Shown in pieces: positions 36,018-42,137 of a stretch of 64,000 nt of DNA. Origin of the DNA: an uncultured Prevotellaceae bacterium (GTDB lineage: Bacteria > Bacteroidota > Bacteroidia > Bacteroidales > Bacteroidaceae); the NCBI GenBank assembly GCA_946406435.1, contig CAMJKP010000003.1, positions 27,568 to 91,567 of the forward strand. The letters run 5' to 3'. The translations under genes were made by a program, and so were the position numbers. How positions within the stretch are numbered: the stretch's first letter is position 1; each line of letters begins with the position of its first letter. The notes beneath the pieces are model-generated. The model was given only the letters and a program-made list of their open reading frames with translations. It ran no database searches and was not told the origin of the DNA.

Positions 36018-36614
36018 ATGAAAAGAACATTACTTGCAATATTAGCCACGATTCTGCTCGCGCTTCCTTCAAGTGCGCAGATAAAATTCGGTATTCAGGG
36101 TGGCTTGAACATTAACAAATTCAGCATGGATACCAAGGTCATAGAGTCTGGAAATCAGGCTGGTTTCTATATCGGGCCAACATTCCTTATAGGCTTACCA
36201 ATCTTCGATGCTGAGGTAGCCGGCATCTACGATGTACGTAGGGGTGAGGTTGATGGTGAGAGCATAACCGAACAGAACGCCAACGTTCAAATAAATATCC
36301 GCAAGGGATTTGACATCAACGACAACAGTCAGATTTTCGTATTTGCCGGTCCACAATACTCTTTCAATATTGATGCTGATGGTATCGACGAGGTATCTGA
36401 TTGCGTAAAAGACTGGCGTTGGAAGAATAGCGACTTCAGCATTAACTTTGGTGGAGGTGTCAAAATCAACCATGTCGAGATAAGGGTAAACTATAACTCT
36501 GCTCTCGGAAAGACTGCCGAGGCAGAATTCAATCCAACGATTGACTCCGAAGGTGTTCACATTCTTGAGCCAAAGTCAAACGCTTGGCAGATTGGTTTGA
36601 CTTACTATTTCTAA
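36018..36614 (+). CDS. PorT family outer membrane beta-barrel protein
   Basis: IKFGIQGGLNINKFSMDTKVIESGNQAGFYIGPTFLIGLPIFDAEVAGIYDVR...GLTYYF. Confidence 0.85.
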   Translation: MKRTLLAILATILLALPSSAQIKFGIQGGLNINKFSMDTKVIESGNQAGFYIGPTFLIGLPIFDAEVAGIYDVRRGEVDGESITEQNANVQINIRKGFDINDNSQIFVFAGPQYSFNIDADGIDEVSDCVKDWRWKNSDFSINFGGGVKINHVEIRVNYNSALGKTAEAEFNPTIDSEGVHILEPKSNAWQIGLTYYF

Positions 36615-36639
36615 AATACAACAAACATACAAATAAACA

Positions 36640-36765
36640 GCCCCTAACCCCAACCCTTCCCCCGCTCGGGGGAAGGGAGTAATTACCTTTTGTCGCTATG
36701 GACTTTGAGGATTAATTCTATATTACTCCCTTCCCCCGAGCGGGGGAAGGGCCGGGGTTAGGGGC
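36640..36765. repeat. GC-rich inverted repeat, CCCCTAACCCCAACCCTTCCCCCG-type
   Basis: Arms 36640-36683 and 36722-36765, each with an internal CCCTTCCCCCG-CGGGGGAAGGG palindrome. Confidence 0.85.
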
Positions 36766-36773
36766 TTTTTGCT

Positions 36774-39077
36774 ATGAAATACGTAAACGTAATCCTCCCC
36801 CTCGGAATAGATGGCCTATATACTTACTCCGTACCTGAAAGTATGGAGAAAGATGTCGTGCCATTCATCCGCGTGAAGGTGCCGTTGGGTATTTCAAAGA
36901 CATATACAGGACTTGTCGTAAACGCCCCGACCGAGGAGATCTCAATAAAAGAGGGAGTACAGATACGCGAGATTATCGCTATTATTGATACAACTCCAAT
37001 ACTTCTCCCTCAGCAATACAAGCTCTGGACATGGATTTCCGAATACTATATGTCGCCCCTTGGTGATGTGTTTCGTGCTGCCCTGCCATCTGGCATGAAG
37101 GCAGAAGGCACTTACCGCCCAAAGACCGAGACATACATAGGCCTAACCGAGCAATATCAGAATGAGGATTCCCTTCATATAGCTCTCAATATGCTTGTTA
37201 GGGCTACCCGTCAGCTTGAGGCATTCAACTCATACCTATCCCTATCCCATTGGGACTCTATAGAGGGCGACAGCACTCGCGAGGAGGTAATAGAGGTCAC
37301 ACGCGAAGAGCTGATGAACGAGTCCCACGCAAATGCCGCTACCATTAAGAACCTATGCGATAGAGGTCTGCTGTATATCTACGACAAGGAGGTTAGCCGA
37401 CTGATGCGCGACACGTCACTCTCCCCTACCCCTAAAGCCTCAACACTAAACGAAGCCCAGCAACAGGCATACGACAGCATCTACAAGGAGTGGGAAGAGC
37501 ATAACGTGTGCCTTCTTCATGGAGTAACCTCAAGCGGAAAGACAGAGATCTACATCAAGATGATCCAACGTGCCATAGACGAAGGCAAGCAGGTGTTGTA
37601 TCTCCTTCCTGAGATAGCTCTTACCGTACAGATTACCGAGCGTCTTCATCGTGTCTTTGGCAACAGACTCGGCATATACCATTCAAAATATTCTGATGCC
37701 GAGCGTGTGGAAATATGGCAAAAGCAGCTCTCCGACCAGCCATACGACGTTATCCTCGGAGCACGTTCTGCCGTCTTCCTTCCTTTCAAGAACTTAGGAA
37801 TGGTGATTATTGACGAGGAGCACGAAAGCTCGTTCAAGCAGCAAGACCCAGCCCCTCGCTATCATGGTCGCTCAGCAGCCATCGTACTTGCTCAGATGTA
37901 TGGTGCAAAGACTCTCCTCGGAACAGCCACGCCAAGTGCTGAGACCTATTATAACGCAAATCAGAAGAAGTACGGCTACGTAACCCTCACAAAGAGGTAT
38001 CAGGACATCAAACTACCACAGATTAAGGTGGTAAACGTAAAGGACCTCCGTCATCGCAAGATAATGAGAGGTGTATTGTCACCAGACCTTAGAATGGCGA
38101 TTGGCGAGGCTTTGCATAATGGCGAACAGGTCATTCTTTTCCAGAACAGAAGAGGCTTTTCTCCCGTAATAGAATGCCACCAATGCGGCTGGGTACCTCG
38201 TTGCACAAACTGCGACGTGTCCCTAACCTACCATAAGAACCTCAACTCGCTCACCTGCCACTATTGTGGCTATACCTATCGTATGCCTACCGAGTGCCCG
38301 GATTGCCACAATCCGGAACTCAAGGACAGAGGATATGGTACGGAGAAAATTGAGGATATAATACGTGAGGAGTTTCCAGAGGCACGTATCGGTCGAATGG
38401 ACCTCGACACCACAAGAACCCGAAACGCCTACGAGCGTATCATAAGCGATTTCTCTTCCCAGAAGACAAACCTGCTTATCGGTACTCAGATGGTTACTAA
38501 GGGACTTGACTTCGACCACGTTAGCGTTGTCGGCATTCTCTCGGCTGACTCCATGCTCAACTATCCCGACTTCCGCGCTTGGGAAACCGCCTATATGATG
38601 ATAACCCAGGTGGCTGGTCGTGCAGGAAGAAAGGGCAAGCAAGGCAAGGTTATTCTCCAGACAAACAATCCCGAACTACCTATCATCAAGCAGATTGTGG
38701 GGAACGATTTTGCCGGTTACTTCCGCGACCTGGTACAGGAACGTCGTGCCTTCTTCTATCCTCCTTTCACACGCCTCATCTACATCTACCTAAAGCATCG
38801 TGACAACCAGATTGTAAACAACGCAGGCATAGAACTTGCCAACCGTCTTCGTCAGGCTCCAGCCTTGAAGGGCAAGAAAGGCACTATGATATTAGGTCCC
38901 GACAAACCAGCCGTTGCGCGTATCAAGACTCTCTGCATCCGCAAGATAGTATTGAAACTCGACCTATCCCTTCCTCTCAAAACCGTTAGGGAGAATATTA
39001 AATTCTGCGTACAACAGATGATGACAGATGCCAACTACAAATCCCTGCTCGTGCATTATGATGTAGATCCGGGATAA
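36774..39077 (+). CDS. priA: Primosomal protein N' (replication restart helicase)
   Basis: LLHGVTSSGKTEIYIKMI, LPEIALTVQITERLHRVFG, DEEHESSFKQ, zinc-binding CHQCGWVPRCTNCDVSLTYH...CHYCGYTYRMPTECPDC. Confidence 0.96.
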   Translation: MKYVNVILPLGIDGLYTYSVPESMEKDVVPFIRVKVPLGISKTYTGLVVNAPTEEISIKEGVQIREIIAIIDTTPILLPQQYKLWTWISEYYMSPLGDVFRAALPSGMKAEGTYRPKTETYIGLTEQYQNEDSLHIALNMLVRATRQLEAFNSYLSLSHWDSIEGDSTREEVIEVTREELMNESHANAATIKNLCDRGLLYIYDKEVSRLMRDTSLSPTPKASTLNEAQQQAYDSIYKEWEEHNVCLLHGVTSSGKTEIYIKMIQRAIDEGKQVLYLLPEIALTVQITERLHRVFGNRLGIYHSKYSDAERVEIWQKQLSDQPYDVILGARSAVFLPFKNLGMVIIDEEHESSFKQQDPAPRYHGRSAAIVLAQMYGAKTLLGTATPSAETYYNANQKKYGYVTLTKRYQDIKLPQIKVVNVKDLRHRKIMRGVLSPDLRMAIGEALHNGEQVILFQNRRGFSPVIECHQCGWVPRCTNCDVSLTYHKNLNSLTCHYCGYTYRMPTECPDCHNPELKDRGYGTEKIEDIIREEFPEARIGRMDLDTTRTRNAYERIISDFSSQKTNLLIGTQMVTKGLDFDHVSVVGILSADSMLNYPDFRAWETAYMMITQVAGRAGRKGKQGKVILQTNNPELPIIKQIVGNDFAGYFRDLVQERRAFFYPPFTRLIYIYLKHRDNQIVNNAGIELANRLRQAPALKGKKGTMILGPDKPAVARIKTLCIRKIVLKLDLSLPLKTVRENIKFCVQQMMTDANYKSLLVHYDVDPG

Positions 39078-39096
39078 ACAATATGAAATCGTGTTG

Positions 39097-39121
39097 GTAA
39101 CAAGTAACAGGTAACAATAAG
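39097..39121 (+). repeat. GTAACAAGTAACAGGTAACAATAAG repeat, copy 1 (forward)
   Basis: 25-nt identical to the inverse at 39223-39247. Confidence 0.85.
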
Positions 39122-39212
39122 AAAAATAGTGTAAACAGATAGCCTATTTTATATATATATATAATAAGGTATATAAACTCCTTAGAAATATTCTGTAAAA
39201 TTTTTGGCCATG

Positions 39213-39249
39213 CACTAAAATCCTTATTGTTACCTGTTACTTGTTACTG
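39213..39249 (-). repeat. 37-nt repeat, inverse copy
   Basis: CACTAAAATCCTTATTGTTACCTGTTACTTGTTACTG, exact reverse complement of 39725-39761. Confidence 0.9.
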
Positions 39250-39724
39250 GCCGGGATTTTGCTCGTCTGTTGAGCAAGATCACATTATAGTCTAAAGACA
39301 TTTAAACTAAAGATAATGAGGCTGTTATAGATATTTAAAAGACAGAGTGTAGGCGACTGATAGTCTCAATAACATAACAATAAGCATTAATTCGTGGCTG
39401 ATTCAACTTGTTCGGTATGCTTGAAAAACGCGAAAAAAAGCTCTGGTAACAATAATTCCGTTATTTTCAATGTCAATCACAATATTCACATTATCCTTCA
39501 AAAAGGGTGTGAAAACCATTCCAAAACAACATCCCCCAAATTAATACAGGCTTCACTGAGATTTGGCGAGAACTTCTCTCTCCGATGTGGTTCCGTTGTA
39601 AATCCGTTGTAAGTCCGTTGTAAATCCCATCTGCCTCCGTTTCCTACGAACGGTTTAGAAGCGGATTAGAAGCGGACTTGGAACGAAGGCATAGCTAAGA
39701 CACAACTGTGCAATTCTACCCCTA

Positions 39725-39761
39725 CAGTAACAAGTAACAGGTAACAATAAGGATTTTAGTG
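39725..39761 (+). repeat. 37-nt repeat, forward copy
   Basis: CAGTAACAAGTAACAGGTAACAATAAGGATTTTAGTG. Confidence 0.9.
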
Positions 39762-39767
39762 TCGATT

Positions 39768-42137
39768 CTACTGATTCCTGCTCTGATGACGATAGTCGAG
39801 AGGCGAGATGCCTGTTTCTGCCTTGAATACGCGGGAGAAATGCCCGGAAGTGTTGAAACCACATTCTACCTCTATCTCGCCAATAGTATGGTCCGTAGTC
39901 TCAAGCAGACGTTTCGCCATAAGCATCCTTCGGTTACGGATGTATGTAGTAGCCGTCAGTCCGCTCATGTTCTTCAATCGCCTGTTGAGGGTGGAAACAG
40001 AGGTACACAGTCTTTCTGCAAGGAATGACGTAGAGACATCGCCAGAAACAAGATTCGCATCAATCAGCTTGTTAATATCGTTGAAGAACTCGACATCCAC
40101 TTCCGGAAGCTGCTTGCTGGTCTCATCGTCCGACTTACTATTGGTGAACATCCTAATCAGGCGCCTGCGCTGTTCAAGCAGTTTGTTCACGATAAGCAAC
40201 AGTTCCTCGTTAATAAACGGCTTTGCAAGATATACCTCCGCTCCTGCACTAATGCCATCCAGACGCTCATGATCCTCTACACGGGCAGAGACAACAACGA
40301 TAGGCAGACAGCACATCGTTTCGTCCGCACGCACGCTTCGCATCAGTTCCAGACCATCCATTCTCGGCATGGCAATATCCGTGATAAGCATATCAGGCAG
40401 TTCCTCGCGAAGCATCTCCAATGCCTCCTGCCCGTCAACCGCACGACTGACACTATATCCCTCGTCACGCAGCATATTGCAGATAAGCATAGCCACATCG
40501 TCGTTGTCTTCGGCGATGAGGATAGAGGCGAACTCGGCCTCTCCCCCCGCCCTCCCCCGTAGGGAGGGAGCCGGAGTGCTATGGGCGGATTCATTTGAGG
40601 GAGTATCCATGATGGCGTTAGCGGCCCCCTCCCTACGGGGGAGGGCGGGGGGAGAGGCCGTAGTTGCCGTATCACTCAACTCCACCATCTCTCCTTCCTT
40701 TGAAGCTGCGATAAGCTTCTTTATCAATTCAAGGAGATTATCACTCTGCCTATGGGCAGCCTCAAGACTCTCGTGCCCTACAACATCATTTTCGGGGATA
40801 TGCTGTTTCAATTGCTCCACCATACCGAGGACAACGGTCATAGGCGTACGCAACTGATGTGTAACGTTTCTATAGAACAGCTCTCTCTCCTCCATAGCCT
40901 TTCTCTTATAGCGAGAAGAACGGCGGCGTACAAAGAATACAGCTCCCAAAGCGATGATGATGATAACAAGCACCAACGCAACGATGACAGAAGCTGTCAT
41001 CATACGCTGATTGGCAAGTTTCAGTTCATCAGCCTCAATCCTCAGACGGCTGTTACCCAGTCGTGCCTCCATCTCATTCAAGTCATCGGTCTGCATCGCC
41101 GACCTCACAGAGTCGTTCAGCTCACCAATCCTCGACTTTGTCTCAAAGGCCTTCTTATAGTCACCCTTGCGGAGATAGACAGTAAACAGCTCGCTAAGCC
41201 TCTCATCCTCATAGTCAATCTTCGAAGCTATAGCCTCAGCCTTATCCCATTCCTTCTGGCATACGGCAAGACGAGCCTGAAGCCCCTCCTGCATGTGTAT
41301 CGGCAAAACATCATCCACATTCTCGGCCCAGATAGAGGAAGCCTGATATTCCTTGACAAATTCAGCCTCCCTACCCGATTCAAACAGGGATGTGAGATAA
41401 GTATATTCACCAAAAACCTTATAAATCTTATTCTTGGCGAAAGCACGACAACGACGCGCCATAGCAAGCGCATCATCATATTTCTTTATTGCCTGATAGC
41501 ACACGGAAAGCTCTCTCGACACAAGCGACACATGCATACTATCATTCTTAGCATAGTCCTCAGCCTTCTTCAGATAAGGAATAGCCATGGAATAATCTCC
41601 ACGATGCTGATAGATACAGCCCATCAGATAGTTACACAGATACAATCCCTCAGAATACTCAGATGTCTCCGCCTTTCTCATCAGATCCCTTACTATCTCC
41701 TGAGCCGAGATATACCTTTTCAAGTCAATAAGATACTCAACCTTGGCATACGTACCATCATACAGCTCCTGCTGATACTCAGGACTCGACGAGGCAATCT
41801 TCAGATACTCATCCATAGCCTTAAAGAACTCCTTTTCCTTCGAAGGGTCTGCCACATACACATAATACTTCAGCTCCAACGCCCTGAGCTTGCACCAGTC
41901 GGAATTAAGTCTGTCAGCCTCCCTGTAGATAGAATCGGCAATAGGGATGTTAGCCGTATCATAAGTATGCTCGTAGAGCAGCTTCATGCGTGTTTCATAG
42001 ACATAGTTCTTGAAGTCTTTCAGTTCCACACTATCCACATCCGACAACGTGGCCTTGTCACCACCCTTGCCACATGCGAACAGCATACAGACAAACACAG
42101 CAATAATAAATATTAATTTGCAAGATTTATGAGACAT
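39768..42137 (-). CDS. TPR / TM / HisKA / REC / AraC-HTH hybrid regulator, HATPase_c domain not apparent
   Basis: TPR-like N-half, TM ASVIVALVLVIIIIALGAVFFV, HisKA ELFYRNVTHQLRTPMTVVLGMVEQL, REC ILIAEDNDDVAMLI...LITDIAMPRMDG...YLAKPF, AraC HTH FLAERLCTSVSTLNRRLKNMSG...HFSRVFKAETGISPLDYR. Confidence 0.88.
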   Translation of the reverse strand: MSHKSCKLIFIIAVFVCMLFACGKGGDKATLSDVDSVELKDFKNYVYETRMKLLYEHTYDTANIPIADSIYREADRLNSDWCKLRALELKYYVYVADPSKEKEFFKAMDEYLKIASSSPEYQQELYDGTYAKVEYLIDLKRYISAQEIVRDLMRKAETSEYSEGLYLCNYLMGCIYQHRGDYSMAIPYLKKAEDYAKNDSMHVSLVSRELSVCYQAIKKYDDALAMARRCRAFAKNKIYKVFGEYTYLTSLFESGREAEFVKEYQASSIWAENVDDVLPIHMQEGLQARLAVCQKEWDKAEAIASKIDYEDERLSELFTVYLRKGDYKKAFETKSRIGELNDSVRSAMQTDDLNEMEARLGNSRLRIEADELKLANQRMMTASVIVALVLVIIIIALGAVFFVRRRSSRYKRKAMEERELFYRNVTHQLRTPMTVVLGMVEQLKQHIPENDVVGHESLEAAHRQSDNLLELIKKLIAASKEGEMVELSDTATTASPPALPRREGAANAIMDTPSNESAHSTPAPSLRGRAGGEAEFASILIAEDNDDVAMLICNMLRDEGYSVSRAVDGQEALEMLREELPDMLITDIAMPRMDGLELMRSVRADETMCCLPIVVVSARVEDHERLDGISAGAEVYLAKPFINEELLLIVNKLLEQRRRLIRMFTNSKSDDETSKQLPEVDVEFFNDINKLIDANLVSGDVSTSFLAERLCTSVSTLNRRLKNMSGLTATTYIRNRRMLMAKRLLETTDHTIGEIEVECGFNTSGHFSRVFKAETGISPLDYRHQSRNQ
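40536..40659. repeat. GC-rich 124-bp inverted repeat inside the hybrid regulator ORF
   Basis: Arms 40536-40572 and 40623-40659, 36/37 complementary; translated in frame as ASPPALPRREGAA...PAPSLRGRAGGEA. Confidence 0.92.

Follow-up and report, generated by a model that had tools for sequence, protein, structure and literature searches.

A hybrid two-component regulator without an ATPase domain in a rumen Prevotella-type bacterium belongs to a recurrent class and may be controlled through dephosphorylation

In Bacteroidales of the gut and rumen, much of carbohydrate metabolism is governed by hybrid two-component regulators, and the general assumption is that these are self-phosphorylating kinases. 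In a stretch of 64,000 nucleotides from an uncultured Prevotellaceae bacterium (hereafter the window), one gene for such a protein had been predicted, from its letters alone, to lack the HATPase_c domain and to leave no room for one between its HisKA and receiver (REC) domains. How could a regulator of this kind work, and is it a damaged gene or one of a wider group?

The gene is an intact open reading frame from a rumen Prevotella-type bacterium, and the domains of its product follow in the order TPR, membrane helix, HisKA, 58-aa linker, REC and AraC-type HTH:

39768..42137, minus strand: HATPase-less hybrid regulator (TPR-TM-HisKA-REC-HTH_AraC) of 789 aa, from the ORF and Pfam
42072..42137, minus strand: N-terminal signal or lipobox-like segment (MLFAC, Cys22), probably lipoprotein-type judging from its sequence, with Cys22 invariant among orthologs
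41004..42050, minus strand: all-helical sensor resembling TPRs, with a predicted periplasmic position, about residues 30-378, from Pfam TPR and AlphaFold helical repeats
40923..41003, minus strand: transmembrane helix with the adjoining juxtamembrane segment, about residues 379-405, a hydrophobic stretch and a continuous helix in the model
40698..40886, minus strand: HisKA (DHp) domain, residues 418-480, from Pfam, with low dN/dS
40845..40859, minus strand: H-box core His427-Gln428-Leu-Arg-Thr431, from sequence and class comparison (PMC3510030)
40530..40691, minus strand: variable linker where HATPase_c would sit, residues 483-536, from the alignment, with low pLDDT
40188..40523, minus strand: REC domain, residues 539-650, with Asp587 and Lys639, from Pfam, with an invariant active site
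39786..40022, minus strand: AraC-type HTH, residues 706-784, from Pfam

Pfam matched HisKA (418-480, E 1.7e-10), REC (539-650, E 6e-27) and HTH_18 (706-784, E 6e-23), with weak TPR matches N-terminal to HisKA. A hidden or divergent HATPase was rejected, as the Pfam scan gave no HATPase_c up to E=10, a HATPase profile built from 58 relatives and run with filters off had no match in the protein, and the AlphaFold model contained no further domain between HisKA and REC. The gap between these domains measured 58 residues (about 60 had been predicted), too short for a HATPase domain, and the phospho-acceptor His427, REC Asp587 with Lys639, and the HTH were all present; the original prediction was thus accurate on each of these points. 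In the model, which was computed from an alignment of 6 sequences, the helical-repeat sensor is confident (mostly pLDDT 80-94), one long helix crosses the membrane and enters the HisKA hairpin, the linker is disordered (pLDDT 22-30 over most of its length), the HTH is moderately confident, and REC is poorly modelled (pLDDT about 25-50) because the alignment is shallow.

With the Bacteroidetes HTCS proteins (BT1754, BT3334, BT4663; PMC11253607) the regulator shares the union of sensor, HisKA, REC and AraC-type HTH in one membrane protein, including a TPR sensor that the likely topology places in the periplasm, a hydrophobic membrane helix, the acceptor His and the REC Asp/Lys active site. It differs from them in having the 58-aa linker where HATPase_c is expected and Gln in place of the kinase-specific H-box acid. 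As the HATPase is missing, the protein is an HTCS-derived variant and not a canonical HTCS.

A search among 398 same-genus genomes, with RUG14400 added by a contig scan, yielded orthologs in seven other genomes, all rumen-type (RUG) and UBA Prevotellaceae/Bacteroidales MAGs, with identities of 43-90% over the part searched. Full-length orthologs were found in G234 (90%, first 480 aa), G135 (81%), G095 (78%) and G365 (69%); the orthologs in G307 (45%) and G324 (43%, broken by Ns) are more distant, and their matches lie around HisKA. Alignment of orthologs had been proposed as a check, and every one of them lacks the HATPase, an absence confirmed by Pfam in six aligned members of the group; the motif FYRN[VI]THQLRTP is common to all. 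The HisKA domain has the lowest dN/dS of all domains against G234, G135 and G365 (0.011, 0.016 and 0.029, vs 0.07-0.08 for TPR, 0.04-0.06 for REC and 0.27-0.47 for the linker), and against the distant G307 its value of 0.15 is slightly over that of REC (0.12); the comparison covers these four genomes, the G095 value not being computable. HisKA is therefore not decaying, and a mere spacer would look different. A partner kinase next door was rejected, since in 7 genomes the contig with the regulator gene carries no gene for a HATPase. In the window (36018-42137) an outer-membrane barrel gene, priA and the regulator stand in the same order as in G135 and G365, and in G307 the three are likewise neighbours.

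The regulator is not alone in its architecture. With a class profile made of the gap-free HisKA-REC block, and counting full-span matches, HATPase-less proteins were detected in 140 of the 398 same-genus genomes (about a third), and the few clear full-span matches outside the genus, among 393 genomes sampled across the order, include at least G723 (two), G608 and G690. The premise that HTCS proteins normally carry HATPase_c holds for the order at large, but within the genus about one genome in three has at least one that lacks it. HisKA and REC are 191-257 aa apart in 63 HATPase-containing relatives (a range that leaves out two mis-split rows, L149 and L167) vs 29-73 aa in the HATPase-less ORFs, where nothing was found between the two domains and our own HATPase profile, which matched the HATPase-containing relatives at E<1e-34, gave no meaningful match. 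Three sensor types occur in the class, namely TPR, a periplasmic sugar-binding protein and a Reg_prop/Y_Y_Y propeller. One member with a sugar-binding-protein sensor (L203:3-5730) adjoins GH32, MFS and PfkB genes in a fructan-type cluster; HATPase-less proteins therefore occupy normal regulator positions.

The REC-HTH tree requires seven changes of HATPase state, at least five of them on well-supported branches. It nests the TPR HATPase-less group within the HATPase-containing TPR regulators, so that this subgroup clusters with ordinary TPR HTCS proteins, and separates it from the sugar-binding-protein group; a separate origin of these two groups is likely from the sequences but not proven, as a single clade was not rejected by the AU test (p 0.097). 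Judged by sequence conservation, HATPase-less hybrid regulators are a conserved and recurrent class, and the suggestion of a pseudokinase-type one-protein regulator has gained support. We found no description of such regulators in Bacteroidales in the literature searched, to which subscription journals were mostly external.

What the class has kept and lost is most evident in the H-box. In CrdS, HK853 and others, kinase activity requires the acid directly after the His (+1) and phosphatase activity does not; the Thr/Asn at +4, conversely, is required for phosphatase activity and dispensable for kinase activity (PMC3510030). The regulator has Gln428 at +1 instead of Glu or Asp, as have all seven orthologs, and Thr431 at +4; the original prediction mentioned neither this Gln nor the in-frame palindromic element that fills much of the linker. 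Among 80 HATPase-less proteins the His and the Thr(+4) are present in all 80, and the +1 acid is lost in 67 (Q47 K14 E12 N3 R2 S1 D1), vs 62 of 62 acidic residues (E56 D6) in HATPase-containing relatives; the members of these two sets are not independent, many sugar-binding-protein proteins being close kin, but +1 was still the most divergent HisKA column between the sets after near-copies were removed. Only five HisKA columns are invariant, including His, Thr+4, Pro+5 and Thr+7; in REC, the active-site Asp and Lys do not vary among the proteins compared. The replacement varies with lineage: the propeller (Reg_prop) members (L206-L226, e.g. L207 and L219) have mostly Lys (SHKLRTP), else Arg, Asn, Gln or Asp, and outside the genus Ser is found in G608 and Lys in G690. 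Such differing replacements point to repeated release from one constraint, with His and Thr(+4) still constrained. In independent pairs the +1 acid was lost together with the HATPase 4-5 times and the reverse was seen 0 times, numbers too few for p<0.05.

We propose, giving the idea about an even chance, that the 789-aa protein is a kinase-dead hybrid regulator in which HisKA would act as a sensor-gated phosphatase of the tethered REC, with phosphate supplied from elsewhere. Self-phosphorylation would be impossible because the protein has no ATP-binding domain and has Gln in place of the acid that prepares the His for phosphorylation. HisKA would be retained as a dimeric, signal-controlled phosphatase of REC, possibly also as a reversible phosphate sink, with the flexible linker tethering REC to it. 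REC would receive phosphate from acetyl phosphate or an unlinked kinase, the TPR sensor would set output through control of dephosphorylation, and the AraC-type HTH would be switched by regulated removal of phosphate, not by its regulated addition. Whereas the architecture, its conservation and recurrence and the residue pattern are observed, we infer the phosphatase activity, the phosphate source and the direction of control from sequence comparison. The genome has genes for acetate kinase and phosphotransacetylase, side by side, which makes acetyl phosphate a plausible donor. Zhu and colleagues are said to have observed, in 2000, phosphatase activity of EnvZ without its catalytic domain (cited in PMC7005713).

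Engineered and natural proteins offer partial precedents. Myxococcus CrdS E372Q is kinase-dead with full phosphatase activity, and this and similar kinase-minus/phosphatase-plus HisKA mutants have the identical Glu-to-Gln change with +4 kept, although they are laboratory-made and their HATPase is present (PMC3510030). The phytochrome DrBphP, naturally non-acidic at +1, has phosphatase activity without kinase activity, and shares with our regulator the absence of expected kinase activity and a putative net phosphatase role; it differs in keeping its HATPase, being soluble, acting on a separate regulator and having Glu at +4 (PMC8292422). The nucleotide-bound ATPase domain stimulates the phosphatase activity of EnvZ and HK853 (PMC7005713) and the phosphatase activity of DrBphP needed ATP (PMC8292422), so a HATPase-less HisKA might be a weak phosphatase. 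The His itself matters little for phosphatase activity in CrdS (PMC3510030), and as it is nevertheless found in all 80 proteins, phosphotransfer through it could matter. The 13 of 80 proteins that retain the acid (12 Glu, one Asp) count against the kinase-dead reading. In Archaeoglobus fulgidus, histidine-kinase-like proteins without HATPase share this aspect of the architecture, but they are archaeal and, in the census passage that lists them, are noted as truncated sequences with no mention of REC, HTH or H-box (PMC1183210).

The HATPase was lost repeatedly, with the His and the phosphatase residue always kept and the kinase residue usually lost, a pattern that suggests switches operated by turning them off under control. 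We consider it possible, at somewhat under an even chance, that these proteins embody a distinct, repeatedly evolved mode of regulation, common in Prevotella, in which sensing would govern nothing but dephosphorylation of the receiver covalently attached to the sensor, and which would have arisen separately for each of the three sensor types, TPR, sugar-binding protein and propeller. Of the genomes sampled in the genus, about a third carry hybrid regulators that should be incapable of self-phosphorylation. By repeatedly losing exactly the kinase-only residue with the phosphatase residue kept, these proteins parallel in nature the separation-of-function mutants made in the laboratory, and the pattern opens the role of phosphatase control in one-protein regulators to direct tests.

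Use of the DHp fold without autokinase activity has parallels in Spo0B, ChpT, DivL and RcsD, but these either keep a degenerate ATPase-like domain or are separate relay proteins, whereas the 789-aa regulator carries REC and HTH in the same chain. An unlikely alternative is that HisKA is a phosphorelay intermediate, which like Spo0B, ChpT or HPt domains would receive phosphate from another hybrid protein's REC and hand it to its own. It would account for the invariant His without ATP chemistry, and reverse phosphotransfer from REC to kinase-minus EnvZ has reportedly been seen (cited in PMC5727384); yet no donor REC or kinase is found on the contig, the invariant Thr(+4) is left unexplained without a phosphatase role, and Spo0B and ChpT keep the acid at +1. 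The original prediction also raised dimerisation driven by the TPRs; in such proteins it is usually HisKA that dimerises. A phosphorylation-independent one-component regulator would use HisKA as a mere dimerisation hairpin relaying sensor movement to the HTH. The modelled continuity of TPR sensor and single membrane helix with the long helix speaks for such a relay, as does the argument that the geometry of a dimer can activate AraC-type domains tethered to it (PMC11253607), but we regard it as rather improbable: His, Thr(+4), REC Asp and Lys are invariant across separately arisen losses, and pure scaffolding would have left His and Thr free to change.

Phosphorylation in trans, as the original prediction suggested, would have the HATPase of another kinase (perhaps through a heterodimer) phosphorylate His427 from ATP, the phosphate then passing to the tethered REC. 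The His is invariant and about a dozen HisKA-type kinases are encoded in the genome, so that an unlinked kinase is conceivable. However, the acid needed at +1 for His phosphorylation (PMC3510030) should be needed in this case too, and it is Gln here and in the seven orthologs and non-acidic in 67 of the 80 class members; with no HATPase on the regulator's contig in 7 genomes either, we hold this route to be quite improbable. The weakest alternative, that the HATPase was recently lost by decay or by assembly collapse at the palindromic repeat located exactly in the linker, is refuted by strong purifying selection and by repeat-free orthologs in other assemblies with the same architecture, and its probability is close to nil.

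This repeat makes up much of the linker, is coding and in-frame, and has arms of 39 nt:

40535..40573, no strand assigned: left arm of the palindromic element, in-frame in the linker, from a repeat search, with more copies genome-wide
40622..40660, no strand assigned: right arm of the palindromic element, from the repeat search

With the linker region as query, 107 blast matches were obtained in the genome, many being the two arms of one copy, which corresponds to about 50 copies or more. The element is absent from the linker in G095, G365 and G307, all equally devoid of HATPase; loss of the HATPase was therefore earlier than the insertion and independent of it, and the sequence comparison marks the repeat as a later, dispensable insertion. 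The G135 ortholog (L126) has the same element in its linker as the window gene, and G234 (L125) and RUG14400 have a different palindrome at that site, which apparently replaces the core of the element, its 3' edge being still present. Between the window gene and G135, dS is 0.20 in the element and 1.1-1.8 in the rest of the gene. The site may thus have undergone gene conversion or been hit by insertions more than once. The element, which resembles the palindromic elements that interrupt protein genes in Rickettsia, also lies in-frame within other protein genes (L024, encoding TsaD, L017, L012, L020, L010, L029 and L030), where it occupies the N-terminal part of TsaD, signal-sequence regions and linkers.
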